From: a bacterium
GTDB taxonomy: Bacteria; UBA6262; WVXT01
DNA length: 32,799 nucleotides
Direction: 5' to 3'
NCBI GenBank assembly: GCA_011773355.1
Contig: WVXT01000031.1
Coordinates: forward strand, 3,672 to 36,470
Made by a program: the position numbers and the translations under genes
The notes under the pieces: generated by a model
Database searches by the model: none
The model's input: the letters and a program-made list of their open reading frames with translations, nothing else
What the model was told of the DNA's origin: nothing
Shown: in pieces, positions 6,178 through 26,637 of the stretch
Position numbering within the stretch: the stretch's first letter is position 1
How the letters are laid out: the number at the start of each line of letters is the position of its first letter

Positions 6178-6285
6178 GAGGAGGAAGGGATAGTTTTCGG
6201 AGTCGCTCGGTTAGAACCTCGCTCTAAAATCCGTCCCGATGCATCGGGACGGATTTGAAGCTCCTGTAACTATCCCTTCATCCTC
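6178..6285. repeat. Palindromic element A, copy 1
   Basis: 108 bp, beginning one base after the pfkA stop. The terminal inverted repeat GATGAAGGGATAGTT pairs with AACTATCCCTTCATC (one mismatch on the left arm). The stem can extend three further bases on each side. Inside are a GGAG/CTCC pair, a small hairpin GGTTAGAACC (6209-6218), and a perfect 30-base palindrome at 6227-6256 centred on GATGCATC. There are six differences from copy 2 over 100 bases. A degenerate half-unit (GGGATAG...TCGGAG) follows at 6302-6316 after a linker shared with copy 3. Confidence 0.9.
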
Positions 6286-6368
6286 AGGGTGTTAAAAGGT
6301 TGGGATAGGTTTCGGAGACACAATGTTTACGGAGAGAAGAAGATAAAGGAAGGAGAGTAAAAATTACG

Positions 6369-7394
6369 ATGAGAATTGGAGTATTGAGTGGTGGAGGAGA
6401 TGTGCCAGGTTTAAATCCGGCAATTCGTGGATGTGTGATGCGGGCAATAGATTTCGGCTGGGAAGTAGTAGGGATTAGCGAGGGATGGAGGGGATTGATT
6501 GAGGGTTTGACTCAACCTTTGGAAATTTCCCAGGTGGAAGATTTGATGGATAAGGGAGGGACGATACTGGGCACTTCCCGCACCAGTCCATATAAGGTGG
6601 AGAAGGGCGTAGAGAAATGTTTACAGAATGTGAGAAAACTTAAACTTGATGCAATAGTGGCTATGGGTGGGGAAGATACTCTGGGAGTAGCCAATAAACT
6701 ATATAAAGAACACAAGATGAAAGTTGTTGGTGTTCCCAAAACTATGGACAACGACCTTTCCTCCACAGATTACACTTTTGGTTTCGATACCTCGGTTACT
6801 CTGGCGATGAATGCATTGGAAGTTTTAAAGGATACGGGAAAATCGCATAGAAGGATTATGGTTTTAGAGGTAATGGGCAGGCACGCCGGCTGGGTGGCAC
6901 TATTTACCGCCATTGGCGGTGGTGCAGACTGGGTTCTGCTTCCCGAGGAAAAAGTGGACGTGGATTCTATGTGCAAACATTTGAAAAAGGTTTATGAAAG
7001 GAAAAAGGTAGCCACAGTGGTAGTCTCTGAGGGTATCGAAGTTCCGGGAAAGAAAGTAGCTAAAGAGAAGCTGGATCAGTTTGGCCATATGCTGTTGAAA
7101 GAGAGAGGGGTGGGAGAAGGTATTGCTGAGATTATAAAGGATAGACTGGGAATTGATACCAGGGCGAGCGTTATTGGTCATATGCAGCGGGGAGGAGCTC
7201 CCACTCTATTCGACCGGATGCTGGGAGTGAGGGCTGGAGTAAAAGCAGCGGAACTGATTAAGGAAGGAAAGTTTGGTCAGATGGTCTCGTTACGGGGAAC
7301 AGAGATGGTGGGGGTTAGTTTAGAAGAAGCTGTGGGTAAATTAAAGACTGTTTCCCGCGAATGGATTGACTTTGCGCATACTCTTTTTAAATAA
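6369..7394 (+). CDS. pfp: Pyrophosphate-type 6-phosphofructokinase
   Basis: A 341-residue PfkA-superfamily protein. Motifs are GGGDVPGLNPAIRG at the N-terminus, AMGGEDT (Asp103 where ATP enzymes have Gly), VPKTMDND (Lys124 before the catalytic Asp127), EVMGRHAGW, SEGIE and GHMQRGGAP. The Asp plus Lys pair is the established signature of PPi as phosphoryl donor, so I predict a reversible PPi-dependent enzyme acting in glycolysis and gluconeogenesis. AGGAG lies 13 bases before ATG 6369, a rather long spacing. It is separated from the ATP-type gene by repeat element A. Lys and Asp together make an ATP-dependent member unlikely, but only an assay is decisive. Confidence 0.9.
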   Translation: MRIGVLSGGGDVPGLNPAIRGCVMRAIDFGWEVVGISEGWRGLIEGLTQPLEISQVEDLMDKGGTILGTSRTSPYKVEKGVEKCLQNVRKLKLDAIVAMGGEDTLGVANKLYKEHKMKVVGVPKTMDNDLSSTDYTFGFDTSVTLAMNALEVLKDTGKSHRRIMVLEVMGRHAGWVALFTAIGGGADWVLLPEEKVDVDSMCKHLKKVYERKKVATVVVSEGIEVPGKKVAKEKLDQFGHMLLKERGVGEGIAEIIKDRLGIDTRASVIGHMQRGGAPTLFDRMLGVRAGVKAAELIKEGKFGQMVSLRGTEMVGVSLEEAVGKLKTVSREWIDFAHTLFK

Positions 7395-7407
7395 GGAATT
7401 AAAAGAT

Positions 7408-7515
7408 GTCATTGCCAGGCGAAGCCTGTCGTCCCGATGAATGGGGACTGCACTTTGTTCGCAATGAGAAGGCTTTGTTGCTAAGCAAACAAATCGTTTG
7501 CAGGAATGAGGGGAA
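7408..7515. repeat. Palindromic element C with internal hairpins
   Basis: Begins 13 bases after the pfp stop and runs to the pheT start. An outer TCATTGC/GCAATGA pair (7409-7467) encloses CAGGC-GAA-GCCTG and GTCCC-GATGAAT-GGGGAC (7431-7448). A second part holds CAAAC-AAATC-GTTTG around 7487-7501. The GTCCCGAT module resembles those in elements A and B. The pheT ribosome-binding site (GAGGGG) sits at its right edge, so any structure could affect pheT translation. Confidence 0.7.
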
Positions 7516-9951
7516 ATGAGGATTTCTTATAATTGGCTAAAGGAATATGTAGATTTTTCTCTGTCTCCTCCGGAACTGGCTAAACGTCTCACCATGGCCG
7601 GTCTGGAAGTAAGCGATATTGTCTATTTGGGGTCAGAGGTGGAGAACGTAGTCGTTGGTGAAATTCTTTCTCTGAAGCCTATTCCCCAGGCGGATAAATT
7701 AAGTCTTTGCCAGGTTTCCGACGGAAAGCAAATCTTTTCTATAGTTTGTGGAGCAAGTAACATAAAGGTCAAAGATCTGGTTCCTCTGGCCAGAGTGGGA
7801 GCGAAACTTCCTGGAGGCAGAAGAATAAGTAAAGCGAAAATAAGAGGGCAGACTTCTTACGGAATGCTCTGTTCTGAGAAAGAATTGGGCGTTGGAGAAG
7901 ATGCCAGCGGCATTCGTATTCTTCCCCCTGGGTCTAAATTAGGTGCTGACATTAAGAAAGCTTTAACGTTGGAAGAAGTAGTGCTGGAAGTAGAACTGAC
8001 TACTAATCGGTCCGATTGCGCCAGCATATTTGGGATGGCGCGTGAAGTTTCCGCTATTTTGGGTGGTAATTTGAAGCCGCCCAGGATTGAGTTGAAAGAA
8101 AACGGAATTTCTGTTTCTGATTTGGCGAAAGTGGAGATTCTCGCTCCCCAGGCGTGCAGGCGTTATACCGCCAGAATTATTCGCGACCTGAAAGTCGGTC
8201 CTTCTCCTTCCTGGCTAGTTAAGAAATTGGAAACAGTAGGGCTCAGGCCGATTAATAATGTAGTGGATGTGACCAATTATGTTCTGATTGAACTTGGCCA
8301 TCCTCTTCACGCCTTCGATTATGATAAATTGTCTGAGCATAAAATTGTCGTGCGCTTTGCTACCCCTGGCGAGAAACTTTTGACTTTGGATAATGAACAG
8401 AGAAAATTTACAGAAAAGAATCTACTTATTGCTGATGCCAGTCGCCCGGTGGCTTTGGCGGGAATCATAGGAGGGGTAGAGACCAGCGTTGAAGAATCTA
8501 CTAGAAATGTACTTCTGGAAAGCGCTTATTTTGCTCCTCAGGTAGTAAGAAGCACAGCCCGCCAGTTGGGCATTGATACGGAATCATCCTACCGGTTTGA
8601 ACGCGGCGTTGATGTGGAAAACGTCATTGTCGCCTCCAATAGAGCTTGCCAGTTGATTAAGGAACTGGCCGGAGGAAAAATTGCCTCGGGAGTAATCGAC
8701 GTTTACCCTCAGCCATTCTCTCCAGTAGAGATAGATTTTTCCCCGGAAAAGGCCAACCATATTCTGGGCTCTAATATATCCACTAAAGAAATGAGTGAAA
8801 TTTTAACCCGCCTGCGATTTAATGTCTCCCAAAAAGATGGAGAGAAGAGCTTGGGGGTCAAAGTGCCTTCCTATAGGAATGATATCTCCCGCCCCATCGA
8901 CCTGGTGGAAGAAATTGCCCGACTGTATGGATATGATAAGATTCCCTCAGGTATGCCGAAAATAGAGGTTAGCGGTGCAGTTGATGACAAGGTTTTGACG
9001 TTAGAAGACTTTGTAAGAGATGTTTTAACTAGATTGGGATTATGCGAAGTTGTCAGCCGTTCTCTGGTTAGTCCGGAATATTATAATGAACTGGACATCG
9101 CTATTCCCTCCGAGTTTAAAGGAACTGTGGAGATTACTAATCCTTTGTCTCGAGAACAGAGTCTTTTACGCACTTCCCTTCTGCCGGGTCTATTAGCGGT
9201 CCTGAAATGGAATTTAAACCATGGTGTGCCTGGTATGAAAATATTCGAAATAGGACGTGTCTTTTTTCCGGGAAAAGATGTGCCGCAGGAGAAAAGGGTT
9301 TTGGCGGGTGTGCTGGTTGGTAGTCAGGAAGAGCGATATTGGGAAGATTCTTCAAAAGCTATCGATTTTTACTATGTTAAAGGTATTGTGGATTCCCTGT
9401 TAGGAGAGCTAGGTGTTATTCCCGAACGTCGGGGAGAATCCGGGATAGAGAAAAGCAGCCATTTTCTTCTGGAACAGGGAATTTCAAATAAGATAATGGT
9501 AAACAATGAACATCTGGGCGATTTAGGGGAATTAGTTAGTAAGGTCTCCCGGAAAATGGAATTTAGAGACAAGGTATACATTTTTGAGTTAGATTTTGAC
9601 AAATTGTGTGCACTCATGGAGATTAAGAAAAAATATGAGAGAACGTCGAGGTTTCCCTGGGTTTCCAGGGATATTGCTTTGGTAGTTCCTCAAGGCTTGA
9701 CATTTGGAGAGATTTTTGTTAAAATAAAAAAGGCTGGAGGTGAACTGGTTGGGGACATAAAACTTTTCGATGTCTATTTCGGAAAACAGATTGAGCCCGG
9801 GAAGAAGGGGCTAGCTTGTAAAATTATTTATCAATCTATGGAAAAGACTTTGAAGGATGAAGAAGTAAATAGTTTGCATACGAAAATAGTGGAAACATTG
9901 GAAAGAGATTTAAAAGTAAAAGTGAGAAAACAGAACTTGCTCGGGAAATAA
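7516..9951 (+). CDS. pheT: Phenylalanine--tRNA ligase beta subunit
   Basis: An 811-residue protein of normal length for bacterial PheT, which forms the alpha2-beta2 enzyme that charges tRNA-Phe and edits Tyr-tRNA. In order: an N-terminal EMAP/tRNA-binding fold (VVVGEILSLKPIPQADKLSLCQV near residue 45), the B3/B4 editing domain (NNVVDVTNYVLIELGHPLHAFD near 250), the B5 domain, a catalytic-like core, and a C-terminal anticodon-binding domain (SRFPWVSRDIALVVP near 710). GAGGGG precedes ATG 7516. The usual upstream partner pheS is absent; the gene follows the PPi-type phosphofructokinase and repeat C. Downstream is the frequent pheT-zapA arrangement. Confidence 0.96.
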   Translation: MRISYNWLKEYVDFSLSPPELAKRLTMAGLEVSDIVYLGSEVENVVVGEILSLKPIPQADKLSLCQVSDGKQIFSIVCGASNIKVKDLVPLARVGAKLPGGRRISKAKIRGQTSYGMLCSEKELGVGEDASGIRILPPGSKLGADIKKALTLEEVVLEVELTTNRSDCASIFGMAREVSAILGGNLKPPRIELKENGISVSDLAKVEILAPQACRRYTARIIRDLKVGPSPSWLVKKLETVGLRPINNVVDVTNYVLIELGHPLHAFDYDKLSEHKIVVRFATPGEKLLTLDNEQRKFTEKNLLIADASRPVALAGIIGGVETSVEESTRNVLLESAYFAPQVVRSTARQLGIDTESSYRFERGVDVENVIVASNRACQLIKELAGGKIASGVIDVYPQPFSPVEIDFSPEKANHILGSNISTKEMSEILTRLRFNVSQKDGEKSLGVKVPSYRNDISRPIDLVEEIARLYGYDKIPSGMPKIEVSGAVDDKVLTLEDFVRDVLTRLGLCEVVSRSLVSPEYYNELDIAIPSEFKGTVEITNPLSREQSLLRTSLLPGLLAVLKWNLNHGVPGMKIFEIGRVFFPGKDVPQEKRVLAGVLVGSQEERYWEDSSKAIDFYYVKGIVDSLLGELGVIPERRGESGIEKSSHFLLEQGISNKIMVNNEHLGDLGELVSKVSRKMEFRDKVYIFELDFDKLCALMEIKKKYERTSRFPWVSRDIALVVPQGLTFGEIFVKIKKAGGELVGDIKLFDVYFGKQIEPGKKGLACKIIYQSMEKTLKDEEVNSLHTKIVETLERDLKVKVRKQNLLGK

Positions 9952-9958
9952 GAGGAAA

Positions 9959-10207
9959 ATGAAAGGGTATAATGTTGTCAGGAAAAAGATAGAGGACATT
10001 GTTGTATTAGTCAATTCGCTGAAACAGGAAAAAGCAAAGTTACTGGAAGAGATTGAAAGACAAAAAGAAGATATCAAATCTATGGAAGGAGAGAATAAAA
10101 CAGCAAAGAAAATAGTCGCTGAAGCAGAGCGCTTGGAAAAAGAAAAAAAAGCAGTTAAGGAAAGACTCCGGGTTTTGCTTGATCGATTAGAGAAAATGAA
10201 AGTGTAA
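9959..10207 (+). CDS. Small coiled-coil protein (ZapB-like in shape)
   Basis: An 82-residue, highly charged protein, helical throughout, with heptad-like spacing of leucine, isoleucine and valine (KKIEDIVVLVNSLKQEKAKL and onward). No catalytic motif is seen. AGAGG precedes the ATG, which lies 7 bases after the pheT stop and 24 bases before zapA. A short coiled coil next to zapA suggests a divisome-associated role like ZapB, but this rests on shape and position only. Confidence 0.7.
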   Translation: MKGYNVVRKKIEDIVVLVNSLKQEKAKLLEEIERQKEDIKSMEGENKTAKKIVAEAERLEKEKKAVKERLRVLLDRLEKMKV

Positions 10208-10231
10208 TCCTGGCACAGGTACGAGGGTTAG

Positions 10232-10531
10232 ATGCTCAAGAAAGATGAGGATAAGATTCCAGTAAAGATATATAACCGTGAATTCGTAATCGAAGGGGGC
10301 AATTGGGACCCTTTATATGTTTCGGCGTTGGCGAAATACGTTGATGATCAGATGAACAGAATAGCTAACACATCAAACATTGTAGATACAAGCCGAGTAG
10401 CAGTTTTGGCTGCTTTAAATATTGCTGATGAATTGTTCAGGTTGAGAGAGAGTAAGGATACCAGTGGCCAGGAAATATCAAAAAGATCTGATGAATTAAT
10501 CAAGCTGCTCGATCAAGCGTTAAAAAAATAG
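10232..10531 (+). CDS. zapA: Cell division protein ZapA
   Basis: A 99-residue protein matching the ZapA fold. The N-terminal strand region is PVKIYNREFVIEGG, followed by the diagnostic helix entry YVSALAKYVDDQMNRIA and the helix VAVLAALNIADELFRLRE, then a short coiled coil. ZapA binds FtsZ and promotes bundling of filaments at the division site. GAGGG lies five bases before ATG 10232. Its neighbours support the call: pheT and a coiled-coil gene upstream, and a 6S-like RNA directly downstream, as in the zapA-ssrS-ygfA order of gammaproteobacteria. Confidence 0.9.
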   Translation: MLKKDEDKIPVKIYNREFVIEGGNWDPLYVSALAKYVDDQMNRIANTSNIVDTSRVAVLAALNIADELFRLRESKDTSGQEISKRSDELIKLLDQALKK

Positions 10532-10565
10532 TTTCTATATTATTTAAATATGGTAGGTTTTTGTG

Positions 10566-10722
10566 GTCCCTGCGATGTGCGTGATGTGTTGACTATTTTA
10601 AGCCGACAAGTATAATTCAGGGAATCCGGAGTCTCTGGTAATCGTGGTTATCGGAGCAGGATACCCACTTTGAGTTGGGCCTTTAAAACAGTCAGACACA
10701 CGGCAGAGCGGGGACTTTTTTT
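10566..10722 (+). ncRNA. ssrS: 6S RNA (SsrS-like), ending in a U-run
   Basis: A rod-shaped RNA can be drawn. The end stem is GTCCCTGC (10566-10573) with GCGGGGAC (10708-10715). The inner closing stem is 10586-10604 with 10678-10699 (GTGT/ACAC, TGACT/AGTCA, TTTTAA/TTAAAA, GCC/GGC). There is a central bubble (10605-10619 and 10667-10677), then GGG..CC/GG..CCC, then a 9-bp apical hairpin (10633-10656). U7 follows directly at 10716-10722. 6S RNA binds sigma70-RNA polymerase by mimicking an open promoter. The motifs AGCCGA and GCCTTTAAAAC resemble E. coli 6S as I remember it. The position between zapA and a ygfA-type gene (with rarA inserted) is the classic 6S location. The 5' end is inferred from pairing. 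Confidence 0.8.
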
Positions 10723-10742
10723 AATATAAGTCGAGGTAGGGA

Positions 10743-12119
10743 ATGGAACTTTTTGCCAAGCAAGAATTAGAAACTATTAGAGATGTGCCTTTGGCTTTGA
10801 AGATGTCTCCCAGGAGACTTTCCCAGTTTGTGGGGCAGGAGCACATTTTAGGCAAGGGTAAACTACTCAGGCGAGCTATTGAGGCGGATAGAATTGTCTC
10901 TCTCATTTTCTATGGCCCATCAGGATGTGGTAAATCGGCACTGGCCAGAATAATCGCTGAACGGACGAAAGCGCACTTTGAAGAGCTAAATGCGGTGACT
11001 TCCGGGGTTGCTGATTTGAGAAAGATAATTGAGAGAGCCTGGCAAAAAATAAAGTTTTCTGGTCAGAAAACAATTCTACTAATCGATGAACTGCACCATT
11101 TTAACCGAAGCCAGCAAGACGCCCTGTTGCCAGACGTGGAGAAAGGGACAGTTACCCTGATTGGCATCACTACGGAGAATCCTTATTTTTATATTAATTC
11201 CCGGTTGCTTTCCCGTTCCCAGATTTTCGAATTTAAACCTCTGAGTAATGAGGAGCTAAAAGTTATTCTGAACAGGGCAATCGAGGACAGAGAGAACGGC
11301 CTGGGAAAGACGAGAATAAAAATTACTCCCCAGGCGCTAGACCATCTGATAAAAACTGCAAATGGCGACGCCAGGAGAGCGTTGAATGCGCTGGAAGTGG
11401 GAGTGATGACTACAAAACCGGGCCGAAGTGGAGAGATTAACTTTACCTTATCAGTTGCTGAAGAATCGATCCAGAAAAAGGCTGTGGTCTACGACAAGAA
11501 AGGGGATGAACATTACGATACGATATCGGCTTTTATTAAAAGCATGAGAGGTTCTGACCCGGATGCAACTTTATACTGGTTAGCAAAGATGATATACGCT
11601 GGTGAAGACCCACGGTTTATTGCCAGAAGGATTGTGATTTGTGCCAGTGAAGATGTAGGCAATGCAGACCCGCAAGCCCTGGTAGTAGCCAGTGCAGCTC
11701 TGGAAGCTTGCGAATTCTTGGGAATGCCCGAAGCCAAGATACCACTTGCTCAGGCGGCAATATATATTGCTTGCGCCCCGAAGTCTAATGCGGCTTACAA
11801 AGGAATAGATAAGGCTTTGACCGATATAGAAGAGAAGAAAGTTCTTAAGCCTCCGAAATATTTGACTAAGGTTGGACAGAAAGATTATAAATATCCTCAC
11901 AGTTACGCAAAAGGATGGGTGAAACAGGACTATTTGCCCGTGAAACGCAGGTACTATTTTCCCACAGAAGAAGGCTATGAGGCGAAGATTAAGAAGAGGA
12001 TGGAGGAACTGGAATCCCGGATTGCCAGGAGTGATAAGCCCTCCCAGAGGCAGAAGACAGGCCATTACGAGAAAAAAGCGAGCGGGCAAGGAAAGAGGGA
12101 TAAAGGCAGAACTTCTTGA
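10743..12119 (+). CDS. rarA: Replication-associated recombination protein A (AAA+ ATPase, MgsA/WRNIP1 family)
   Basis: A 458-residue clamp-loader-like ATPase that acts at stalled replication forks. It has Walker A GPSGCGKS at residues 58-65, and Walker [21 protein letters not shown], which is the RarA signature with His where Arg is common. Then come the sensor region [20 protein letters not shown], followed by [12 protein letters not shown] and the C-terminal tetramer domain ([23 protein letters not shown], then [18 protein letters not shown]). The last ~40 residues are a basic, Gln/Lys-rich tail. ATG 10743 has GAGGTAGGG just upstream. The gene starts 20 bases after the 6S-like RNA and ends 3 bases before the cyclo-ligase gene. 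Confidence 0.95.
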
Positions 12120-12122
12120 AAA

Positions 12123-12728
12123 ATGGAGGAGAAAAAAAGAAAGCTCAGGAAAGAATTCCTGAAGAAGAGAGATAACCTCTCCCGTGAGGAAATAGAATCT
12201 AACAGCGGGAAAATCGAAAAGAGGCTCTTTGCCTTACCTGAGTTCCATCGGGCAAAGACGGTTATGTTTTATGTGTCTTTTCGCAGCGAAGTGGCAACAG
12301 GGAAAATGATGAGAAATGCAATGAAATTGAAAAAGAGGATAGCAGTACCTGTGGTGCATGGAGAAAAGATAGTGGCATGCGAGATTAGAAATCCAAGAAA
12401 AGAACTCACCAAGGGAAGTTTTGGAATAAGAGAGCCGAAGAAAGAGTTCAGAAGGAGGGTGAATAGAAAAGAGATTGATGTGGTAGTTGTTCCTGGAGTA
12501 GTCTTTGATAACAGGGGAGGTCGCCTGGGGTATGGGAGAGGATACTATGATCGATTTTTGGGAAGTAAATCGACAAAAGTGACGATGAATCGCTCTCATA
12601 AATGCGCGCTGATTGGACTCGCTTTCGATTTGCAGATTGCCAGGAAAATTCCTCTCAAAAAGAAAGATGTGAAGGTTAATAAAATAATTACTGAAAGTAG
12701 GATAATAAACTGCAAGAATCGGCCATAA
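12123..12728 (+). CDS. ygfA: 5-formyltetrahydrofolate cyclo-ligase family protein
   Basis: A 201-residue protein of the family that uses ATP to convert 5-formyl-THF to 5,10-methenyl-THF, returning a storage or inhibitory folate to one-carbon metabolism. The N-terminus KKRKLRKEFLKKRDNLS is typical, followed by FYVSFRSEVATGKMM and the signature GVVFDNRGGRLGYGRGYYDRFL near residue 120-140. A basic insertion (KSTKVTMNRSHKC) follows the signature. It is 3 bases from rarA and surely in the same transcript. In enterobacteria the gene directly follows the 6S RNA gene; here rarA is between. Confidence 0.9.
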   Translation: MEEKKRKLRKEFLKKRDNLSREEIESNSGKIEKRLFALPEFHRAKTVMFYVSFRSEVATGKMMRNAMKLKKRIAVPVVHGEKIVACEIRNPRKELTKGSFGIREPKKEFRRRVNRKEIDVVVVPGVVFDNRGGRLGYGRGYYDRFLGSKSTKVTMNRSHKCALIGLAFDLQIARKIPLKKKDVKVNKIITESRIINCKNRP

Positions 12729-12824
12729 GCAAATTCTAATAGTCGTATCATCGAATTTCTCGTATCTCCAATAAGAACAACTTGAGCATGGTGATTTTCC
12801 GCAGATGTATATAGGGAGGAGGAA

Positions 12825-14381
12825 ATGAATAATCTAATCTTGATTGGTGCGGGTTGCCTTCTATTGGGAATATTGGTAGGATATATTTTGAGATTTATTT
12901 ATGCGAGACTTCAGGCATCATCGGTTGAAGCACAGTCGAAAAGGATAATCGATTCCGCCCGGAGAGACGCAGAATCGAAAAAGAAAGAAGGCATCCTGGA
13001 AGTAAAAGATGAGATGCACAGAGCAAGGATTAAATTTGAAGAAGAGACGAGAAGTCGACGGAAAGAATTAGAAGGTCTGGAAAATCGGTTAGCACAGAAG
13101 GATGAAAATCTAGACCGTAAAGTTGAGATCCTGGAGAAGAAAGAAAGAGAAATTACCAAGAAGGAGAGATACGTTTTAGGAAAGGAGAAACATTGCGAAG
13201 ATGAGGCAAAGAGATTAGCTGAAGCAAGAGAGGAACAGAAAAGGGTATTGGAAAGGTTAGCCAGGATGACCCCCGAAGAAGCAAAGAAAGTTCTCTTGGC
13301 CAGTATGGAGGAAGAAGCTAAGAAAGAATCGGCGACGATTATTAGACGGATGGAGCAAGAAGCTGTAGAAACTGCAACAAGAAAAGCTAAAGGGATTTTG
13401 AGTCAGGCTATCCAGCGTTGTGCTGTGGAGCACACTGCGGATATCACCGTCTCCACAGTTTCCTTGCCTGATGACGAAATGAAAGGCCGGGTGATAGGAC
13501 GGGAAGGCAGGAATATTCGGGCTTTCGAGAACGCTACGGGAGTTGATTTGATAATTGACGACACTCCTGAAGCAATTGCACTTTCTGCCTTTGATGGGGT
13601 GAGAAGGGAAATTGCCCGGGTTGCTCTGGAGAGACTAATTGCCGATGGCAGGATTCACCCGGCAAGGATTGAAGAAATTGTAGAAAAAGTAAAGAAAGAG
13701 ATGGAAGCACATCTAAAGTCAGTGGGAGAACAAGCGGCATTTGATGTCGGCGTTCAAGGTCTCCACTCGGAAATAATCAGGTTGATAGGCAGGCTTAAAT
13801 ATCGGACCAGTTATGGTCAGAATGTTCTACAGCATTCTTTAGAGGTAGCTCACGTAGCCTCTGTATTGGCTGGCGAATTAGGCCTGGATGGGAAATTTGC
13901 CAGACGGGCGGGATTGATACATGATATAGGTAAATCGATCGATCGCGACGTCGAGGGAACGCATGCCCAGATTGGTGCAGATTTGGCAAGAAAACATAAC
14001 GAATCCTCGAAAATGATCAATGCCATTGCTGCTCATCACGAAGACTGCCAGGCTCAGAGCATAGAAGCAGTCTTGCTGCAAGCTGCTGATGCAGTCTCTG
14101 CTTCCCGGCCAGGTTCTCGGAGAGAATCGCTGGAATACTATTTAAAGAGACTGGAAAAGTTAGAAAATGTAGCCAATTCTTTTCGAGGAGTAGAGAAAGC
14201 TTATGCCATTCAGGCAGGACGAGAAGTAAGGATTATTGTGGAACCGGAAGAGGTGGAGGACAGTATGGTGCAAACTCTGGCCAGGGAAATAGCCAAGAAA
14301 ATCGAGAAAGAAATAGAATATCCCGGCCAGATAAAAGTCACGGTTGTCAGAGAAACGAGAGCCATAGAGACGGCAAAATAG
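12825..14381 (+). CDS. rny: Ribonuclease Y
   Basis: A 518-residue membrane-anchored endoribonuclease that initiates mRNA decay. In order: an N-terminal transmembrane helix (residues ~3-25), a long charged coiled coil (~30-200), a KH RNA-binding domain ([15 protein letters not shown] near 220), and an HD phosphohydrolase domain with HD at 366-367 ([12 protein letters not shown]) and AIAAHHED downstream. Length is normal. GGGAGGAGG directly precedes ATG 12825. The 96-base gap upstream holds only weak promoter-like matches. The next gene is the YmdB-type phosphodiesterase, the same order as in B. subtilis. Confidence 0.96.
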
Positions 14382-14384
14382 GGA

Positions 14385-14419
14385 AGTAGCTCGGGATTTG
14401 GTCGCTGGCTACACCAAAT
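14385..14419. repeat. Palindromic remnant related to element B
   Basis: Starts 3 bases after the rny stop. GTAGC pairs with GCTAC (14386-14412) and ATTTGGT (14396-14402) with ACCAAAT (14413-14419). The right half (GTCGCT....ACACCAAAT) matches 4100-4114 in element B apart from a 4-base insertion. Confidence 0.6.
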
Positions 14420-14446
14420 GCCTGGCGATAAGATGAAGGAGAAAAG

Positions 14447-15250: not shown

Positions 15251-15253
15251 AAG

Positions 15254-16504: not shown

Positions 16505-16505
16505 A

Positions 16506-16760
16506 ATGGAGGAGATGAAGTTTGAAGAGGCGATAGGTAGATTGGAAAAGATAGTGCAACAGCTGGAGGAAGGAGAAAAGTCTCTTGAGGATTCTTTGAA
16601 ATTATTTGAAGAAGGGATAAAATTATCAAAATTTTGTTCAGGGAAACTGGAAGAAGCGAAAAAGAAAATTGAGATTTTGACCAAATCTGATAAGGGAGAG
16701 GCAGTAACAAAACCTTTCAATCTGGAAGAAGAGATAGAAGAGGAAGAGACTGATTCTTGA
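16506..16760 (+). CDS. xseB: Exodeoxyribonuclease VII small subunit
   Basis: An 84-residue protein with the family pattern FEEAIGRLEKIVQQLEEGEKSLEDSLKLFEEGIKLSKFC, a helical hairpin that binds the coiled coil of XseA. The C-terminus is a glutamate-rich tail. It begins one base after the xseA stop and its own stop overlaps the TTG start assigned to ispA by 4 bases. Confidence 0.95.
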   Translation: MEEMKFEEAIGRLEKIVQQLEEGEKSLEDSLKLFEEGIKLSKFCSGKLEEAKKKIEILTKSDKGEAVTKPFNLEEEIEEEETDS

Positions 16761-17650: not shown

Positions 17651-17667
17651 TATAGAATAATAGCCTA

Positions 17668-17723
17668 GTAGTCGCTCCTATTCATGGCAGCGTTCGAATT
17701 GGCAGCCTGAAGGTGGCGACTAC
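17668..17723. repeat. 56-bp inverted-repeat element
   Basis: GTAGTCGC (17668-17675) and GCGACTAC (17716-17723) form perfect 8-base ends. A TTCGAA palindrome lies near the centre, and two GGCAGC direct repeats lie inside. It sits 17 bases after the ispA stop. The longest frame of the next gene starts (GTG 17713) inside its right arm, which argues for a later true start. Confidence 0.7.
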
Positions 17724-17751
17724 ATTCATGGGAGTGTTTTTTGAGGGATTT

Positions 17752-19032
17752 ATGGAAGAAGTAAATATAAAATTATCATATGGAAGAAAAGGTTTAGATA
17801 TCACCCTTCCGGAAGAAGGCCTTACGATTATTGAACCGGAATTCGTGCCGGGGCTTTCTGACGAGAGAAAAGCTTTCATAGATTCCTTAGACCACCCCAT
17901 AGGAAGTCCGCCACTCAAGGAATTGATTAAAGCCAAAGATACTGTAGCTATTGTCTTTTCGGATATAACCAGACCTGTACCTAATAGAAAGATTATTCCC
18001 TGGCTTTTAGAAGTATTAAGTGGTGTCAGCAAAGATAGAATAATTTTGATCAATGCCACGGGAATGCATCGCGCCAATACAACCGAAGAACTTGCGGAGA
18101 TGCTGGGTGAAAAAGTTGTTAGAAATTATAGAATTATTAACCATGATGCCCAGAAGGAAGAGGAAATGGTCTATCTGGGAAAAACAAAAGCCGGAGGGGA
18201 TATATGGGTAAATGGTAATTATATTCGAGCTGATGTTAAAATTCTGACTGGATTTATCGAACCCCACTTCTTCGCCGGATTTTCCGGAGGCCCGAAATCA
18301 GTACTTCCTGGTATCTGTGGTGAACAGACGATAATGCATAATCATGGCGCCAATATGTTGAACAATCCAAAGGCAGACTGGGGAATTACCCGGGGAAATC
18401 CTCTCTGGGAAGAGATTCGAGAAGTAGCTCTTATGACTGGACCCACTTTCATAATAAATGTTACATTGAATAAGGAAAAGGAGATAAGCGGTGTCTTCTC
18501 GGGAAATATGGATTCTGCACATCAGAAGGGCGTGGAATTCGCCCGGAAGAGCGCGATGCGCGCTGTACCTCATCTATTCGATTTAGTCATTACCACCAAT
18601 AGCGGTTATCCCCTCGATTTAAATCTATACCAGACAGTAAAAGGAATGTCTGCGGCAAGCCAGATTGTAAAGAAAGGCGGAGCAATTATCTGCGTGTCCG
18701 AATGCTCAGATGGCATTCCCGAACATGGCAATTATCGCCGTATTCTCCAGATGGGCAAGAATCCAGCGGAGATACTGAAGATAGTCTCATCTCCCGGGTT
18801 TTCTATGTTTGATCAGTGGGAAGCCCAGATACAGGCTGAGATTCAGACTAAGGCACGAGTCTATCTATATTCGGAGCTTCCAGAAAAAGAAGTAGTATCC
18901 TGCCACCTTGAGCCCATCAAGAACATAGAAGACACAGTGGCAAGAATAAAAAAAGAGCTGGGGAATAGTCCCAGAATAGCAGTTCTCCCGGAAGGACCTA
19001 TGACCATTCCTTACCTGAGTCAGATTTCTTAG
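17752..19032 (+). CDS. LarA-family nickel-dependent racemase/epimerase homologue (DUF2088)
   Basis: A 426-residue protein. All key LarA residues appear, with a constant offset of two from L. plantarum LarA: His106 (TGMHR), His172 (EPHFFAGFSGG), Lys182 (GGPKS, the cofactor-bound Lys) and His198 (MHNH). In LarA these hold the nickel-pincer nucleotide and act in hydride transfer that racemises lactate. Family members act on other 2-hydroxy acids, so the substrate is open. ATG 17752 is chosen because GAGGG lies just upstream; the longer frame starts in a repeat. No larB, larC or larE is nearby. The gene separates ispA from dxs, ends 22 bases before dxs, and is preceded by an inverted repeat. This is consistent with an insertion into an older operon. 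Confidence 0.88.
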   Translation: MEEVNIKLSYGRKGLDITLPEEGLTIIEPEFVPGLSDERKAFIDSLDHPIGSPPLKELIKAKDTVAIVFSDITRPVPNRKIIPWLLEVLSGVSKDRIILINATGMHRANTTEELAEMLGEKVVRNYRIINHDAQKEEEMVYLGKTKAGGDIWVNGNYIRADVKILTGFIEPHFFAGFSGGPKSVLPGICGEQTIMHNHGANMLNNPKADWGITRGNPLWEEIREVALMTGPTFIINVTLNKEKEISGVFSGNMDSAHQKGVEFARKSAMRAVPHLFDLVITTNSGYPLDLNLYQTVKGMSAASQIVKKGGAIICVSECSDGIPEHGNYRRILQMGKNPAEILKIVSSPGFSMFDQWEAQIQAEIQTKARVYLYSELPEKEVVSCHLEPIKNIEDTVARIKKELGNSPRIAVLPEGPMTIPYLSQIS

Positions 19033-19054
19033 AATCTTGGAGGATACAGAAAAT

Positions 19055-20905
19055 ATGGCAGTCCTGGAATTGATTGACCGACCAAGTGATCTCAGGCTGA
19101 TCAGGAAAAAATTACTCCCACAACTTGCGCAAGAGATCAGAGAGAAAATAGTTAAGGTGACATCCCAGAAAGGAGGCCATCTTGCCAGTAGTCTGGGGAC
19201 GGTCGAATTGACCATAGCTTTACACTATGTATTTGACTGCCCGCATGATAGGATTATTTGGGATGTTGGTCATCAGGCCTATGCCCATAAGATTATAACA
19301 GGCAGGAGGGACAGTTTTTCTACTCTACGCCAGCACGGAGGAATAAGTGGTTTTCCTGCTCCCGATGAGAGTGAATATGACGCCTTTGGCGTGGGACACA
19401 GCTCTACTGCAATCTCAGCGGCTCTGGGAATGGCCTGCGGCCGCGATTTATCCGGCAATAATAACTGCAAGGTGGTAGCGGTGATAGGAGATGGTTCGAT
19501 GACCGGAGGAATGGCTTTCGAAGCTCTCAATAATGCCGGGCACCTTGGTAAAGACCTTCTGGTAATTCTAAATGACAATGAGATGTTCATTTCCCACAGG
19601 GTGGGCGCCCTAGCAGGGTATCTGACAAAATTGATGACTTTAGGTCTGGTTAAGAAACTGGAGAGGAAAGTAAAAAAGTTTTTGACCAGAGTCTCCTTCT
19701 GGGGCGTTGCAATTCTCAGAGTAGCTCGGCGATTTAAAGTACTCCTCTTTCCCGGGATGCTTTTTGAGGAAATGGGTTTTTCTTATCTGGGCCCTATCGA
19801 TGGACATAATGTTCACTATTTAATCGAAATTTTTCAGAAAGTGAAAGATATGAAAGGTCCGGTCCTGATTCACGTAGTTACCAAAAAAGGTAAAGGATAT
19901 CAGCCGGCGGAGCGAGAACCCATAAAGTTTCACGGGACATCGCCATTTAATATTTTGACTGGAGAGATGGAAAAAAGTAAAATACCTTCATATACAAAAG
20001 TCTTTGGTCGCACTCTCATAGACTTGGCTAAATTGAATGAAAAGATTATTGCCATTACTGCGGCAATGCCTCAGGGTACAGGGTTGGACGAATTTGAAAA
20101 GGAGTTTCCCAGGAGATACTTCGATGTGGGAATTGCTGAACAACATGCGGTTACTTTTGCCGCAGGGTTGGCTAAAGCCGGGTACAAGCCTGTTTGTGCC
20201 ATATATTCCACGTTTCTTCAAAGAGCATTTGACCAGATAATAGATGATGTTTGTCTGCAGAACCTCCCGGTAGTCTTTGCTATAGATAGAGCCGGTATAG
20301 TAGGTGAAGATGGACCAACTCATCAGGGAACGTTTGACCTTTCGTATCTTAGATTAATTCCCAATATGGTGGTAATGGCCCCCAAGGATGAGAATGAGTT
20401 AGTGCACATGCTCAATAGTGCTCTCTCATGGAATTTTCCCTGTGCCATTCGCTTTCCTCGAGGAGAAGGCATCGGGGTTAAATTGGACAGGCAATATAAA
20501 GTACTTCCCCTGGGAAAGGCAGAGGTGCTTGCAGAGGGGAATGACGTAGCTATGCTGGCGATAGGGAATACTGTCCACCCTTGTCTGTTAGCTCAGCAGA
20601 GACTGGAAGCAGAAGAAATAAAAGCAACTTTAGTTAATATGAGATTTGTTAAACCTCTGGATGAGGAGCTAATAAATAAGATAATCAAGAAAGTTCATAA
20701 AATTGTCACTGTAGAGGAGAACACCCTTTCCGGAGGTTTCGGCTCCGGTATCAAGGATTTACTGGCGACTGATAATGTGCGTATTTTAAGTATTGGACTT
20801 CCCGATAGGTTTATTGAACATGGTAGTAGGGAAAAATTAAGAGAGAAGTATGGACTGACCGCCGGCAAGATTGCCCAGAGCGTCAGTGAATTCATAAAGG
20901 GATGA
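19055..20905 (+). CDS. dxs: 1-deoxy-D-xylulose-5-phosphate synthase
   Basis: A 616-residue thiamine-diphosphate enzyme that joins pyruvate and glyceraldehyde 3-phosphate in the first step of the MEP isoprenoid pathway. It shows GGHLASSLGTVELTIALHY and WDVGHQAYAHKI at the N-terminus, the TPP motif GDGSMTGGMAFEALNNAG...NDNE, DGHN, the pyrimidine-domain DVGIAEQHAVTFAAGLA, and DRAGIVGEDGPTHQGTFDLSYLR. NDNEMFIS replaces the more usual NDNxMSIS. ATG 19055 is preferred over TTG 19037, because the TTG overlaps the GGAGG (19039-19043) that would serve the ATG. The stop codon lies inside the left arm of repeat element A copy 2. Confidence 0.96.
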   Translation: MAVLELIDRPSDLRLIRKKLLPQLAQEIREKIVKVTSQKGGHLASSLGTVELTIALHYVFDCPHDRIIWDVGHQAYAHKIITGRRDSFSTLRQHGGISGFPAPDESEYDAFGVGHSSTAISAALGMACGRDLSGNNNCKVVAVIGDGSMTGGMAFEALNNAGHLGKDLLVILNDNEMFISHRVGALAGYLTKLMTLGLVKKLERKVKKFLTRVSFWGVAILRVARRFKVLLFPGMLFEEMGFSYLGPIDGHNVHYLIEIFQKVKDMKGPVLIHVVTKKGKGYQPAEREPIKFHGTSPFNILTGEMEKSKIPSYTKVFGRTLIDLAKLNEKIIAITAAMPQGTGLDEFEKEFPRRYFDVGIAEQHAVTFAAGLAKAGYKPVCAIYSTFLQRAFDQIIDDVCLQNLPVVFAIDRAGIVGEDGPTHQGTFDLSYLRLIPNMVVMAPKDENELVHMLNSALSWNFPCAIRFPRGEGIGVKLDRQYKVLPLGKAEVLAEGNDVAMLAIGNTVHPCLLAQQRLEAEEIKATLVNMRFVKPLDEELINKIIKKVHKIVTVEENTLSGGFGSGIKDLLATDNVRILSIGLPDRFIEHGSREKLREKYGLTAGKIAQSVSEFIKG

Positions 20906-21003
20906 AGGGATAGTTATCGGAGTCGCTCGGCTAGAGCCTCACTCTAAAATCCGTCCCGATGCATCGGGACCGATTTGAAGCTCCTGCAACTATCCCTTCA
21001 TCC
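20900..21003. repeat. Palindromic element A, copy 2
   Basis: 104 bp. The left terminal repeat GGATGAAGGGATAGTT contains the dxs stop codon (20903-20905), and the right arm AACTATCCCTTCATCC is perfectly complementary. The small hairpin is GGCTAGAGCC (20929-20938), where copy 1 has GGTTAGAACC, so the two changed positions keep the pair. The central palindrome (20947-20976) has one mismatch compared with copy 1. The element fills almost the whole dxs-tlyA gap. Confidence 0.9.
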
Positions 21004-21018
21004 ATAGACACGGATACT

Positions 21019-21771
21019 GTGAAAATAAAAAAGAGAAAAGAGAGATTGGATAAGCTTCTCGTGGAAAGAGGTCTGGCGTCGAGCCGCGAGAAAGCAAAGA
21101 GATTGATAATGGCTGGCTGTGTGTGGGTGGGGGAGCGAAGAGTTACTAAGGTAGGTGCTGAGTTCCCTGCCGACATGGAGGTAGAAGTAAAAGAATCTCC
21201 TTTACGAAAATATGTCTCCCGGGGAGGATTGAAGCTAGAAGCAGCCATAAAGGATTTCGGGCTTAGCATTAAAGGAAAAGTCTGTCTTGACGTTGGCGCA
21301 TCAACGGGAGGGTTTACGGATTGTCTTCTCCAGAATGGGGCGAAAAAGGTTTACGCCCTGGATGTAGGTTATGGCCAGCTTGATTGGAAATTGCGGAACG
21401 ACCCCAGGGTGGTCACCATTGAGAAAACGAACATAAGATACTTTAACGGAAAAGAGATTAAAAACCCGGTCGATTTGGCTACTATCGATGTCTCTTTTAT
21501 TTCCCTGGATAAAGTCTTGCCGAAGGTTAAGGAGTTAATTGGGAAAAAGGGCGAGATAGTCTCTTTAATTAAGCCACAATTTGAAGCAGGGAGAGAAAAA
21601 GTACAGAGAGGTGGTGTGGTTAAGGACAAAAAGGTTCACCAGGAAGTTATCGATAAAATAAAAATTCTATCTGGAGAGTTGGGATTAGAAGTAAAAGGAT
21701 TGACTACTTCGCCAATCAAAGGTCCTTCGGGGAATATTGAGTATTTTATCTACTTAAGGAAAAAAGAGTAG
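21019..21771 (+). CDS. tlyA: TlyA-family rRNA (cytidine-2'-O)-methyltransferase / hemolysin A homologue
   Basis: A 250-residue protein with an N-terminal S4 RNA-binding domain (RLDKLLVERGLASSREKAKRLI) and an FtsJ-like Rossmann methyltransferase domain with the SAM motif CLDVGASTGGFTDCLL, followed by ALDVGYGQLDWKLR and SLIKPQFE. TlyA of mycobacteria methylates 16S and 23S rRNA. GTG 21019 gives the standard start (MKIKKRKERLDKLL). The longer frame to ATG 20959 runs through repeat element A and is not credible. No Shine-Dalgarno is visible before the GTG; the repeat ends 15 bases upstream. dxs-tlyA linkage is common in bacteria. Confidence 0.92.
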   Translation: MKIKKRKERLDKLLVERGLASSREKAKRLIMAGCVWVGERRVTKVGAEFPADMEVEVKESPLRKYVSRGGLKLEAAIKDFGLSIKGKVCLDVGASTGGFTDCLLQNGAKKVYALDVGYGQLDWKLRNDPRVVTIEKTNIRYFNGKEIKNPVDLATIDVSFISLDKVLPKVKELIGKKGEIVSLIKPQFEAGREKVQRGGVVKDKKVHQEVIDKIKILSGELGLEVKGLTTSPIKGPSGNIEYFIYLRKKE

Positions 21772-21815
21772 ACAAAACAGAATCAAGAAGTAAGGCTATT
21801 AAGGGCGCATTAAGC

Positions 21816-24278
21816 ATGGAGAAAATCTATAATTTTAAAAAGATTGAAAAGAAATGGCAGAAGAAATGGGAAAAGCGTGGAACTTTTAAAATCTCTGAAC
21901 ACGGGGGAAAGAAAAAATTCTATCTTTTGGAGATGTTCCCTTATCCTTCGGGAGAGCTGCACATGGGACACATGCGCAATTATGCTATTGGCGATACCGT
22001 GGCCCGCTTCCTCAGAATGAGAGGGCTTAATGTCCTTTATCCTATGGGTTATGATGCACTGGGATTGCCAGCAGAGAACGCTGCAATAGAGAAAAAGATT
22101 CACCCTTCTTCCTGGACGAATAGATGTATTGATATGATGAAAGAGCAGCAAAAGAAAATGGGATTGAGTTACGATTGGGGAAGGCTGGTAATTACTGCTG
22201 ATCCAGAATATTATCGCTGGAACCAGTGGATTTTTCTTAAGTTTTATGAGAAGGGCCTCGCCTATAGGAAAAAAGCGCCTATCAATTGGTGTCCCCGGTG
22301 CGAGACAGTCCTGGCCAATGAGCAGGTGGTAAATGGAAAATGCTGGAGGTGCGAGGCTTTTGTTGAGATTAAAAGCCTGGAGCAATGGTTCTTTAAAATC
22401 ACCGAGTATGTTGAGGAACTTCTGGAAGATTTAAAAAAACTGAAGGACTGGCCAGATAGGGTCAGACTTATGCAGGAGAACTGGATTGGCAAAAGTTACG
22501 GAACGCTGGTCAATTTCAGATTGAAGGATTCTGACGGTCTGATTCCAGTATTTACCACTCGACCGGATACCCTTTACGGCGCCACTTTTATGACCTTCGC
22601 TCCCGAACATCCCAGGGTTCTAGAGTTTATCGCTGGAACAGAATATGAAAAGAAGGTAAAAGAATTTATCAATAGGGTCGTAATTGAAGATAGATTCACT
22701 CGCACGGGAGAGAACAAAGAAAAAGAAGGGATGTTTATTGGCAGGTATGCGATAAATCCTTTAAATGGGAATGAGATTCCCATCTATGTAGCCAACTTCG
22801 TGTTGATGGAGTACGGGACAGGAGCAATAATGGCTGTGCCAGCTCACGACCAGAGAGATTTCGAGTTCGCTAAAAAGTACGATATCCCCGTAAAACAGGT
22901 AATCGTTCCTTCTCCAGAGGGAACTTCTACAGGGAAAGATATGAAAGAAGCTTACGAAGGTGAAGGAATTATGGTCAATTCAGCCCAGTTTGACGGTCTC
23001 TCTTCCCCACAGGGAAGGGAAAAGATTACGCAATATCTGGCCCAGAAAGGATGGGGAAGAAAGACGCTTCAATACAGATTGCGCGATTGGCTAATTTCCC
23101 GACAGAGATACTGGGGTACGCCTATTCCCATAATTTACTGTGATAAGTGCAAGATTGTGCCTGTGCCGGAAAAAGATTTACCGGTAAAACTGCCTACGAG
23201 AGTCGAGTTTACGGGAAGGGGAAATCCTTTAGCTAAAAGTAGTGAGTTCGTAAACTGTAAATGTCCCAAGTGCGGTGGTCCGGCAAGAAGAGAAACCGAT
23301 ACTATGGATACATTCGTTGATTCCTCCTGGTATTTTGCCCGTTATTGCAGCCCGCATTTTAAGAAGTTACCTTTTGACAAGAAGAAAGTTAAGTACTGGA
23401 TGCCGGTTGACCAATACATAGGAGGGATTGAACATGCGATTATGCATCTCCTATATGCCCGTTTCTTTACCAAGGCCTTGAGGGATATAGGCTTGTACAG
23501 TATCGACGAGCCTTTTACAAGACTCTTGTGTCAAGGAATGGTAGTTAAAGATGGTGCAAAGATGTCAAAATCGAAAGGGAATGTAGTTAGCGTGGATGAG
23601 ATAACTCAGAGATATGGCGCTGACACAGCGAGGTTATTCATTCTCTTTGCCTCACCTCCGGAAAAAGATTTAGAATGGAGTGATAAAGGCGTTCGTGGCT
23701 GCTACAGGTTCTTGAACAGAGTTTGGAATCTGGTTAGGGAAATAGGAAAAAAGCGTAAAGGAACCGCTCTTAAGACTTACGACCAAGAAGAAAAAAGGCT
23801 AAACAGAATTACCCACTCGGCTATTAAGAAAGTCACTGAAGACATAGAAAGTTTTCATTTTAATACTGCTATTGCCGCCATTATGGAACTTTGTAATGGA
23901 ATATATGATTACTTAAAGAAGAAAGGCACTAATTCCCACTTACGGGCAAGTATAGAAAAGTTAATACTTTTGCTATGCCCTTTTGCGCCGCATATCTGTG
24001 AAGAATTATGGGAGGTGCTGGGACATCGGGGAAGCGTGATTAAAAAATCCTGGCCAGAATATGACCAGGAAGTAATCAAAAAAGAGGAGATGCTTATTGT
24101 TATTGAAGTGAATGGCAAAGTGAGAAGCAAAGTAGAAGTTCCCGTAAATTTGGAGGAAGAAGAGATAAAGAGAAGAGCACAGATGGATGAGAGAGTTAGA
24201 AAGTATATTGATAATAAAAAAATTAAACAGATAATCTATGTCCCCAAACGGCTGGTGAATATTGTAGTAAAAGAATAA
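21816..24278 (+). CDS. leuS: Leucine--tRNA ligase
   Basis: An 820-residue class I synthetase of normal bacterial length. PYPSGELHMGHMRNY carries the HIGH-type motif (His49-His52), and KMSKS is at residues 582-586. The CP1 editing domain shows TTRPDTLYGATF and MAVPAHDQRD. Zinc-binding cysteine pairs occur in NWCPRC...CWRC and YCDKC...CKCPKC, followed by DTMDTFVDSSWYFARY. The C-terminal region (VNGKVRSKVEVP) is typical. An AAGGG lies 11-12 bases before ATG 21816, a rather long spacing. leuS-lptE-holA is also the order in enterobacteria. Confidence 0.97.
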   Translation: MEKIYNFKKIEKKWQKKWEKRGTFKISEHGGKKKFYLLEMFPYPSGELHMGHMRNYAIGDTVARFLRMRGLNVLYPMGYDALGLPAENAAIEKKIHPSSWTNRCIDMMKEQQKKMGLSYDWGRLVITADPEYYRWNQWIFLKFYEKGLAYRKKAPINWCPRCETVLANEQVVNGKCWRCEAFVEIKSLEQWFFKITEYVEELLEDLKKLKDWPDRVRLMQENWIGKSYGTLVNFRLKDSDGLIPVFTTRPDTLYGATFMTFAPEHPRVLEFIAGTEYEKKVKEFINRVVIEDRFTRTGENKEKEGMFIGRYAINPLNGNEIPIYVANFVLMEYGTGAIMAVPAHDQRDFEFAKKYDIPVKQVIVPSPEGTSTGKDMKEAYEGEGIMVNSAQFDGLSSPQGREKITQYLAQKGWGRKTLQYRLRDWLISRQRYWGTPIPIIYCDKCKIVPVPEKDLPVKLPTRVEFTGRGNPLAKSSEFVNCKCPKCGGPARRETDTMDTFVDSSWYFARYCSPHFKKLPFDKKKVKYWMPVDQYIGGIEHAIMHLLYARFFTKALRDIGLYSIDEPFTRLLCQGMVVKDGAKMSKSKGNVVSVDEITQRYGADTARLFILFASPPEKDLEWSDKGVRGCYRFLNRVWNLVREIGKKRKGTALKTYDQEEKRLNRITHSAIKKVTEDIESFHFNTAIAAIMELCNGIYDYLKKKGTNSHLRASIEKLILLLCPFAPHICEELWEVLGHRGSVIKKSWPEYDQEVIKKEEMLIVIEVNGKVRSKVEVPVNLEEEEIKRRAQMDERVRKYIDNKKIKQIIYVPKRLVNIVVKE

Positions 24279-24294
24279 AAGAGAGGAGGAATTT

Positions 24295-24861
24295 ATGAGA
24301 AAGTCTATTTTCGTTATTATTGGGTTGGGAGTGTTTCTATTATTTGGTTGTGCTTATACGCCTGTGGAAATTTTGCCTAAGCACATTAAGACAATAGCCG
24401 TGCCCACATTTATCAACAGAACCGCTCACTACGGTATTGAGTCTAAACTTACCGATGCTGTAATAGAAGAATTCATTAGAGATGGCCATCTCTCCATTGC
24501 CAAGAAGAACGAGGCTAATGCTCTATTAACTGGGGAGATTATTACTTACGTTTTAGAACCCCTCTCTTACGATGCTACAGAGGTAGTTGAGCAGTATAAA
24601 CTCTGGGTCATAGTTAATCTCTCTTTTCGAGATTTAGCTACAGGAGAGGTTCTCTGGGAAGAGAAGAGGGAGAGCATAGAAGGGAACCTTATTGGAGGAA
24701 TTGAAGGAGATGTAAGGTACTATGTAACTCCCCGAGCGGGTAGAACCGTGGAGACAGAGGAGGAAGCGCAGGAGCGCTTGGTCGTTGAACTCGCCGACCA
24801 TATTGTGCGACGCACAGTCTATGGATGGGGAAGCCAGATTGAAATCCAGAGTGGAAGATGA
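24295..24861 (+). CDS. lptE: LptE-type LPS-assembly lipoprotein
   Basis: A 188-residue lipoprotein. A short signal peptide ends in the lipobox L16-F17-G18-C19. The mature part starts with a CAYTP segment, then IKTIAVPTFINRTAHYGIESKLTDAVIEEFIRDG, the usual LptE alpha/beta pattern, and strands such as KLWVIVNLSFRDLATGEVLWEE. LptE plugs the LptD barrel and helps place LPS in the outer membrane. GAGAGGAGG precedes ATG 24295. Position between leuS and holA matches the conserved neighbourhood of lptE and raises confidence, since the sequence family is poorly conserved. Its stop codon overlaps the first bases of repeat element A copy 3. Confidence 0.85.
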   Translation: MRKSIFVIIGLGVFLLFGCAYTPVEILPKHIKTIAVPTFINRTAHYGIESKLTDAVIEEFIRDGHLSIAKKNEANALLTGEIITYVLEPLSYDATEVVEQYKLWVIVNLSFRDLATGEVLWEEKRESIEGNLIGGIEGDVRYYVTPRAGRTVETEEEAQERLVVELADHIVRRTVYGWGSQIEIQSGR

Positions 24862-24976
24862 GGATGAAGGGATAGTTATCGGAGTCGCTCGGTCAGTAAA
24901 ACCTCGCTCTAAAATCCGCCAGCGCTGGGGTGATACCTAGCGGATTTGAAGCTCCTGCAACTATCCCTTCATCCTC
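24860..24976. repeat. Palindromic element A, copy 3
   Basis: 117 bp. The terminal repeat GAGGATGAAGGGATAGTT is perfectly matched by its complement at 24959-24976. The first two bases of the element are the last two of the lptE stop codon. The core differs from copies 1 and 2: AAATCCGC (24912-) and GCGGATTT (-24947) still pair, but between them CCAGCGCTGG and GGTGATACC replace the GTCCCGAT palindrome. The side hairpin keeps GGT/ACC but has a longer loop. Confidence 0.9.
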
Positions 24977-24991
24977 AGGGTGTTGAGAGGT

Positions 24992-25018
24992 AGGGATAGT
25001 TATCGGAGTCGCTCGGTT
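24992..25018 (+). repeat. Partial copy of element A (left end only)
   Basis: The first 26 bases (AGGGATAGTTATCGGAG onward) are identical to the left part of copy 3. A 15-base linker (AGGGTGTTGAGAGGT) separates it from copy 3. The same linker and a decayed half-unit follow copy 1 at 6286-6316. Confidence 0.85.
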
Positions 25019-26576: not shown

Positions 26577-26611
26577 CAGGGATATCTCCTTGCCGGCAGC
26601 TTGAGAGCAAT

Positions 26612-26637
26612 AGCTTTGCAGGCGGAAAGGCAAAGCT
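26612..26637 (-). promoter_or_regulatory. Hairpin in the rpsT leader
   Basis: AGCTTTGC and GCAAAGCT form a perfect 8-bp stem with a 10-base loop, 36 bases before the rpsT start, inside its predicted 5' UTR of about 110 bases. One arm belongs to a repeat (26630-26654) shared with 4069-4093. It could be a regulatory structure, since S20 represses its own translation in E. coli, or simply a repeat remnant. Confidence 0.45.

Follow-up and report, generated by a model that had tools for sequence, protein, structure and literature searches.

A palindromic element recurs three times within 19 kb of the stretch of DNA analysed here (32,799 nt, hereafter the window; lying on contig C37 of metagenome bin G000, 1.33 Mb in size), each time at the end of a gene, and the question raised by this locus is what the element is and why it stands at stop codons. 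A preliminary description of the window proposed either selection for an RNA or DNA structure at gene ends or a MITE-like element that targets stop-proximal DNA. The explanation which we consider probable draws on both proposals: the element appears to be a miniature mobile palindrome, hitherto undescribed, that is maintained as a structured RNA between cistrons and has had its core overwritten repeatedly by other palindromes.

Copies in the window and distribution of the element

The three full copies of the preliminary description are present in the window, with ends at most 2 nt from those given there, as are its two partial copies, each a solitary 5′ arm, one following copy 1 and the other copy 3 (Table 1). 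Also found were the terminal repeats GGATGAAGGGATAGTT/AACTATCCCTTCATCC (16 bp) with the inner GGAG/CTCC pair, both side hairpins, GGTTAGAACC and GGCTAGAGCC, and the pairing AAATCCGC/GCGGATTT of copy 3, and the elements do lie at, inside or next to the upstream stop codon. The claim that the central sequence was replaced in copy 3 stood in one part only: the whole core does differ between copies 1 and 2 and copy 3, but in the opposite direction, copy 3 carrying the ancestral core and the TCCCGATGCATCGGGA centre of copies 1 and 2 being the derived cassette.

Table 1. Positions of the copies, their parts and the adjoining stop codons in the window
Feature	Position	Strand	Remarks
Stop codon TAA of the upstream phosphofructokinase-like gene	6174..6176	+	just 5′ of copy 1; at -13 of GGGATAG
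Copy 1, full element, CGG-type core (TCCCGATGCATCGGGA)	6180..6283	+	E 1.3e-19 with model R1
5′ arm (LA, 24 nt) of copy 1	6187..6210	+	= G000:C37:9858-9881
3′ tail TCAGGGTGTTAAAAGGT behind copy 1	6284..6300	+	common to most copies of every cassette type
Partial second 5′ arm GGGATAGGTTTCGGAG	6302..6317	+	repeat family D1
Copy 2, full element, CGG-type core	20900..21003	+	supplies the TGA stop (20903-20905) of dxs
5′ arm of copy 2	20907..20930	+	
Stop codon TGA of the lptE-like gene	24859..24861	+	just 5′ of copy 3
Copy 3, full element, ancestral type I core (..CCAGCGCT..ACCT..)	24862..24974	+	E 1.2e-25 with model R1
3′ tail of copy 3	24975..24991	+	
Second 5′ arm in tandem	24993..25016	+	124 nt after the first arm; continues as a longer palindromic cassette
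B2 cassette (long form) following the second arm, with the end TTCGCAAATTATC	25017..25195	+	

When the genomes were searched for the 24-nt 5′ arm, LA (GGGATAGTTWTCGGAGTCGCTCGG, up to three mismatches), 18 matches were obtained in the window's genome and none with the reversed control, together with 5, 17 and 21 matches in three congeners and none, as a sequence, in 56 other genomes. Chance is ruled out by the 18 arms against 0 for the reversed control and by the RNA folding z-scores of the three window copies, which range from -5.5 to -7.4 relative to shuffles. The element is present at about 26 loci over the four congeneric genomes; one right arm in the window's genome (G000:C41:41706-41728, L180) was left unpaired by the 5′-arm pattern. 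A covariance model built from 18 genus copies brought to light five more in the order's second family, its only other one, and a second model with these five included added another four, so that nine diverged copies are counted there. By covariance model the element occurs in all six genomes of the order and in none of 284 other genomes, the large scan having been run with stricter filters, under which weak matches can be lost. Pattern scans of IMG/VR with the genus arm and with the core of the other family yielded nothing, nor did BLAST against phages and plasmids. At the gathering score Rfam matched only a 6S RNA in the window, and a permissive scan gave only chance microRNA-type matches. 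The remark of the preliminary description that no named family matches agrees with the Rfam, phage and plasmid searches, and the family, of about 110 nt, appears to be hitherto undescribed and restricted to one bacterial order.

The 6S RNA gene (RF00013, 61.9 bits) is located at positions 10564-10718 of the window (plus strand), between a short ORF and a rarA-like AAA ATPase gene. Other, quite different palindromes (GCAAAGCTTACGCTTTGC, TCCCGATNNATCGGGA and more) fill the intergenic gaps throughout the window and a syntenic relative, with complete turnover at about 88% DNA identity (positions 4040-4180, 26610-26660 and 14390-14430 of the window; 625-913 and 2470-2625 of L019).

Placement at stop codons and traces of movement

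Placement was measured for each primary copy from the nearest same-strand gene end, the reference edge being GGGATAG in the genus and the element start in the other family, at the 34 loci where the gene upstream could be read (26 in the genus and 8 in the other family). The element lies on the strand of the upstream gene at every one of them, and at 32 the stop codon is no more than 17 nt from the reference edge, the remaining two being at -26 and -33. Three classes of stop are seen in the genus: TAG within GGGATAG (+4), TGA within GATGAA (-4), and a stop just upstream. The genomes concerned have short gaps (34 of the 69 co-directional gaps without an element in an 87-kb contig measure 20 nt or less), so a random site in a random co-directional gap would be equally close 40–49% of the time, by simple ORF-based gene calls. 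The observed proximity is far beyond this expectation, and gap size does not explain the single orientation. The stop-proximal preference suspected from three copies holds over these loci.

Clearly empty relatives were found of the loci at pfk (in G003), cinA (G000), dxs/tlyA (G002 and G003) and one trp gene (G000 and G002), and among the loci compared no insertion locus is common to both families. Because the loci differ between the families and empty sites exist, the element has moved, as the idea of a MITE-like element had implied. Many genus loci are common to two or three species, and these insertions therefore predate the species split. The element possesses terminal inverted repeats; no clear target-site duplication was seen at the four loci with an empty relative, where the flanks have decayed. 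Neither a full-length transposon nor an autonomous element with the same ends was found, all arm matches in the four genomes being short elements.

A search for the mover detected no Y1 transposase in G000 or G001, and neither LA nor RA at any of 20 Y1 loci in relatives. One Y1 (RAYT-like) transposase gene of a congener (L128, G003:C107:15298-15585) has CAC and GGT REP palindromes on both sides, in a REPtron-like arrangement, and these REPs also occur as cassettes behind the arm. A retro-element or group II-like element found no support, as no reverse transcriptase (RVT_1) was detected in any of the six genomes of the order; in the same six genomes the integron integrase model TIGR02249 gave no match above the cut-off. 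Genes for tnpA of the IS200/IS605 type, beside large second ORFs resembling tnpB, are present in G002 and G003 (L121, L122, L124 and L125) and absent from the window's genome; one tnpA/tnpB-like copy of G003 is interrupted by a stop and lies on both contigs C14 and C49, an apparent duplicate assembly.

Conserved fold and exchanged cassettes

Full copies share an architecture composed of an outer stem P1 (16 bp), a short internal loop, P2 (GGAG/CTCC), a side hairpin P3 and a central stem P4. Within the genus (18 copies) two-sided changes affect five pairs in 12 cells, and none of 500 shuffles reached the same cells or score; P1 also carries uncompensated changes there. Across both families, in an alignment that was fitted to the structure model and so leans toward structure, two-sided changes were counted in 26 of 34 pairs and 86 cells, again attained by 0 of 500 shuffles (mean 16.4 pairs and 28.6 cells), with 15 pairs in the best slid control. 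A hand alignment agrees with the fitted one: P4 forms at least 9 of its 10 pairs in every copy tabulated, and 2 or 3 different pair types occur at 6 of the 10 positions. The P1 and P4 stems are only 44% identical between the families (180/410) and still pair, whereas the unpaired motifs CGCTC, CTCGCTC, CGCT and AAC (the core being written as CGCTC, CTCGCTC, AGCGCT..AAC) are 96% identical (142/148). The proposed selection for structure at gene ends accords with this strong covariation and with the unpaired core kept across the two families. The refuting test set for the idea in the preliminary description, covariation and proximity to stops over the genome, was carried out, and the idea survived it.

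A pseudoknot between AGCG of the P4 loop and CGCT of the junctions was dropped, since L198 has lost AGCG and the pairing is not kept in every copy. As for an intrinsic terminator, a pattern scan of positions 20800-25400 flagged no element, and there is no U tract. An unrelated 30-nt palindrome is located within P4 of one second-family copy (L200, G004:C13:12031-12173).

Behind the 5′ arm several kinds of cassette are found: type I, CGG, TAG, CAC/GGT, and the long forms B1 and B2. Type I, which is common to the genus and the other family, is the ancestral cassette, and the TAG and CAC/GGT cassettes look like true GTAG REPs. The same 3′ tail stands behind most cassettes, and tandem arm-cassette-arm arrays with a period of 120–138 nt are common. 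Fourteen loci seen in at least two species gave 33 orthologous pairs, of which 6 have the same cassette behind the arm, with 5.4 expected under random dealing within genomes (P 0.44). The arms of orthologues with different cassettes are closer to each other than permuted ones, at 1.11 vs 1.65 mismatches (P 0.0026). At the trp locus a rare arm variant, GGAGGCGCTCGG, is common to three species, one of which has B1 behind it and the others type I and a second arm. Exchange of the cassette is observed even where the upstream coding DNA differs by only 0.4–6%. At the hom locus of G002:C14 and G003:C8 (L153:3096 and L162:1560) the upstream DNA is only 0.4% different. The cassettes there are nevertheless unlike, as are the opening bases of the following gene, a pattern suggestive of a recombination tract whose end lies just within that downstream gene. 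In L160 (G003:C67) a CGG REP is nested within a CAC hairpin.

Interpretation and relation to known systems

According to the explanation preferred here, the element would insert at gene 3′ ends in sense orientation, usually within operons, with its 5′ edge at the stop codon or supplying it. As it is sense-oriented and intercistronic, a strong hairpin starting at the stop codon is expected in the operon mRNA, and co-transcription with the neighbouring genes would give a branched hairpin between cistrons, made up of P1, P2, P3, P4 and the conserved unpaired core. By analogy with REP, NEMIS and ERIC, this intercistronic RNA would most likely affect the upstream message through termination-proximal translation, processing or stability, a role proposed on the precedents of REP hairpins, GTAG REPs and Correia elements. 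In the genus, the ancestral core would have been overwritten by REP-like TAG, CAC/GGT and CGG units and by the long B cassettes while the 5′ arm stayed at its locus, and the simplest routes of exchange would be recombination between the shared arm and tail, loss of one unit from tandem arrays, and insertion of REPs into the core. A bolder version, which we advance only tentatively, is that of a new cis-acting, sense-only class of intercistronic RNA with a branched conserved core, installed at stops as a fixed docking platform. Its structured insert would be swapped between copies at a rate well above that of change in the flanking DNA, perhaps through a dedicated recombinase or transposase that is structure-specific.

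Several of the same observations would be expected from purely selfish, REPIN- or MITE-like DNA, with structure and core kept as a transposase substrate (single-stranded or cruciform), and with placement and orientation reflecting tolerance of insertions in tight co-directional operons. We regard this as rather unlikely. The empty sites and the lack of loci common to the families do show a mobile element, half of the co-directional gaps in the 87-kb contig are short, REPs and Y1 transposases are present in congeners, and GTAG REPs are known to give flanking genes their stop codons (PMC3733652). Tolerance alone, however, does not yield 34 sense insertions out of 34 for an element with the same terminal repeat at both ends, a matching transposase is absent from the element's own genome and from G001, and the arms of fixed copies evolve more slowly than upstream third codon positions (4.2% vs 15.6%, with some ascertainment bias). 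It is less likely again that the structure is maintained, without function, mainly by mutation (quasipalindrome correction) and by gene conversion among copies. Template-switch correction of imperfect inverted repeats is a known process (PMC7202029, PMC3820800) through which compensatory changes in DNA palindromes can arise without selection, and the homogeneity of the arms across loci (7% mean difference) counts in favour of this reading; yet neither the identity of the unpaired core across two families nor the sense-only placement is explained in this way. Such correction would preserve pairs and not unpaired motifs, and that the latter are kept is the main ground for preferring selection on structure, which most likely maintains both pairing and core.

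Cassette exchange could be mimicked if the assembly of short-read bins had joined the wrong repeat core to a locus, an artefact that seems improbable as a general explanation. All genomes are metagenome bins, several contigs end within elements (e.g., G000:C31 and G001:C154) and some copies are identical (G2 trp and pfk), so misassembly is possible for some cassettes. Against it, most copies have substitutions of their own, synteny extends over both flanks and the forms differ by more than 100 nt in length, one congener locus combines a new 5′ half with locus-specific variants in the 3′ half (L007 vs L167), and placement and covariation remain untouched. Hardly credible is the possibility that the elements are integron attC-like sites, conserved in structure and variable in sequence, which enable the exchange of cassettes 3′ of genes: they do follow the stop in the orientation of the gene, keep their fold despite stem divergence and have their cassettes exchanged, but they are single sites in housekeeping operons and form no cassette arrays, the exchanged part is a palindromic core and not a gene, and no integron integrase scored above the cut-off in the order. 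An attC site proper is refuted by the sequence, as the copies have no GTTRRRY/RYYYAAC boxes at their ends. An analogous recombinase, other than of the integron type, is possible as the exchanger.

The small palindromic repeats of bacteria are usually viewed as loose intergenic litter. From natural sequence data alone, one family is seen here to combine stop-level placement, a single orientation, selection-like covariation and core, an inherited anchor and an exchangeable centre. With such a family one can test directly whether repeats of this kind function as RNAs between cistrons or serve as substrates for transposition, and by what means one palindromic cassette replaces another at a fixed site.

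The likeness to REP, BIME and REPIN sequences lies in small intergenic palindromes 3′ of genes and in mosaic clusters. A REP, however, is a palindrome of 20–40 nt with a GTAG (or CGTC) tag at one foot, occurring singly or as an inverted pair, whereas the element measures about 110 nt, has a branched fold with a conserved unpaired core, occurs in the sense direction only at 10–25 loci per genome, and resides in a genome without a RAYT (TnpA-REP). At its feet the genus has GGATGAAGGG / CCCTTCATCC, and the second family has other sequences there, with no GTAG/CGTC tag; a RAYT-mobilised REP or REPIN was therefore rejected, since the tag is found only in the TAG and CAC/GGT cassettes and no RAYT is flanked by the element, the one flanked Y1 locus having CAC/GGT REPs instead. 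In E. coli, REPs often lie no more than 15 nt from the stop codon, and hairpins so placed reduce the translation of the gene upstream (Liang 2015, as reported in PMC12306157), and GTAG REPs often provide the stop codon (PMC3733652). The NEMIS or Correia repeat enclosed elements (CREE) of Neisseria are similar in their length of about 100–150 nt, their terminal inverted repeats and their position adjoining genes; their core is conserved, and RNase III can bind or cleave them (PMC2649163). They differ in sequence and host and are not anchored at stops, whereas in the element the stems are rewritten, the core bases kept and the cores swapped at fixed loci; its predicted fold is compatible with a NEMIS/CREE-like processing element.

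With integron attC sites the element shares conservation of structure over sequence, a position 3′ of genes in the same orientation and the exchange of what lies between sites, and it differs in having no R/L boxes, no integron integrase and no gene cassettes. ERIC (127 bp) and the pneumococcal BOX are likewise small palindromic intergenic elements, BOX being modular with constant ends; in BOX it is the number of one central module that varies, not the identity of the module, and we know of no strict stop-codon anchoring in either ERIC or BOX. BOX and RUP repeats have been described (PMC3049150). The element behaves most like NEMIS, ERIC and REP while falling fully within the definition of none of them, and it is set apart from the known small palindromic repeats by its unusually strict stop anchoring, its single orientation, its structured core and its exchangeable centres.
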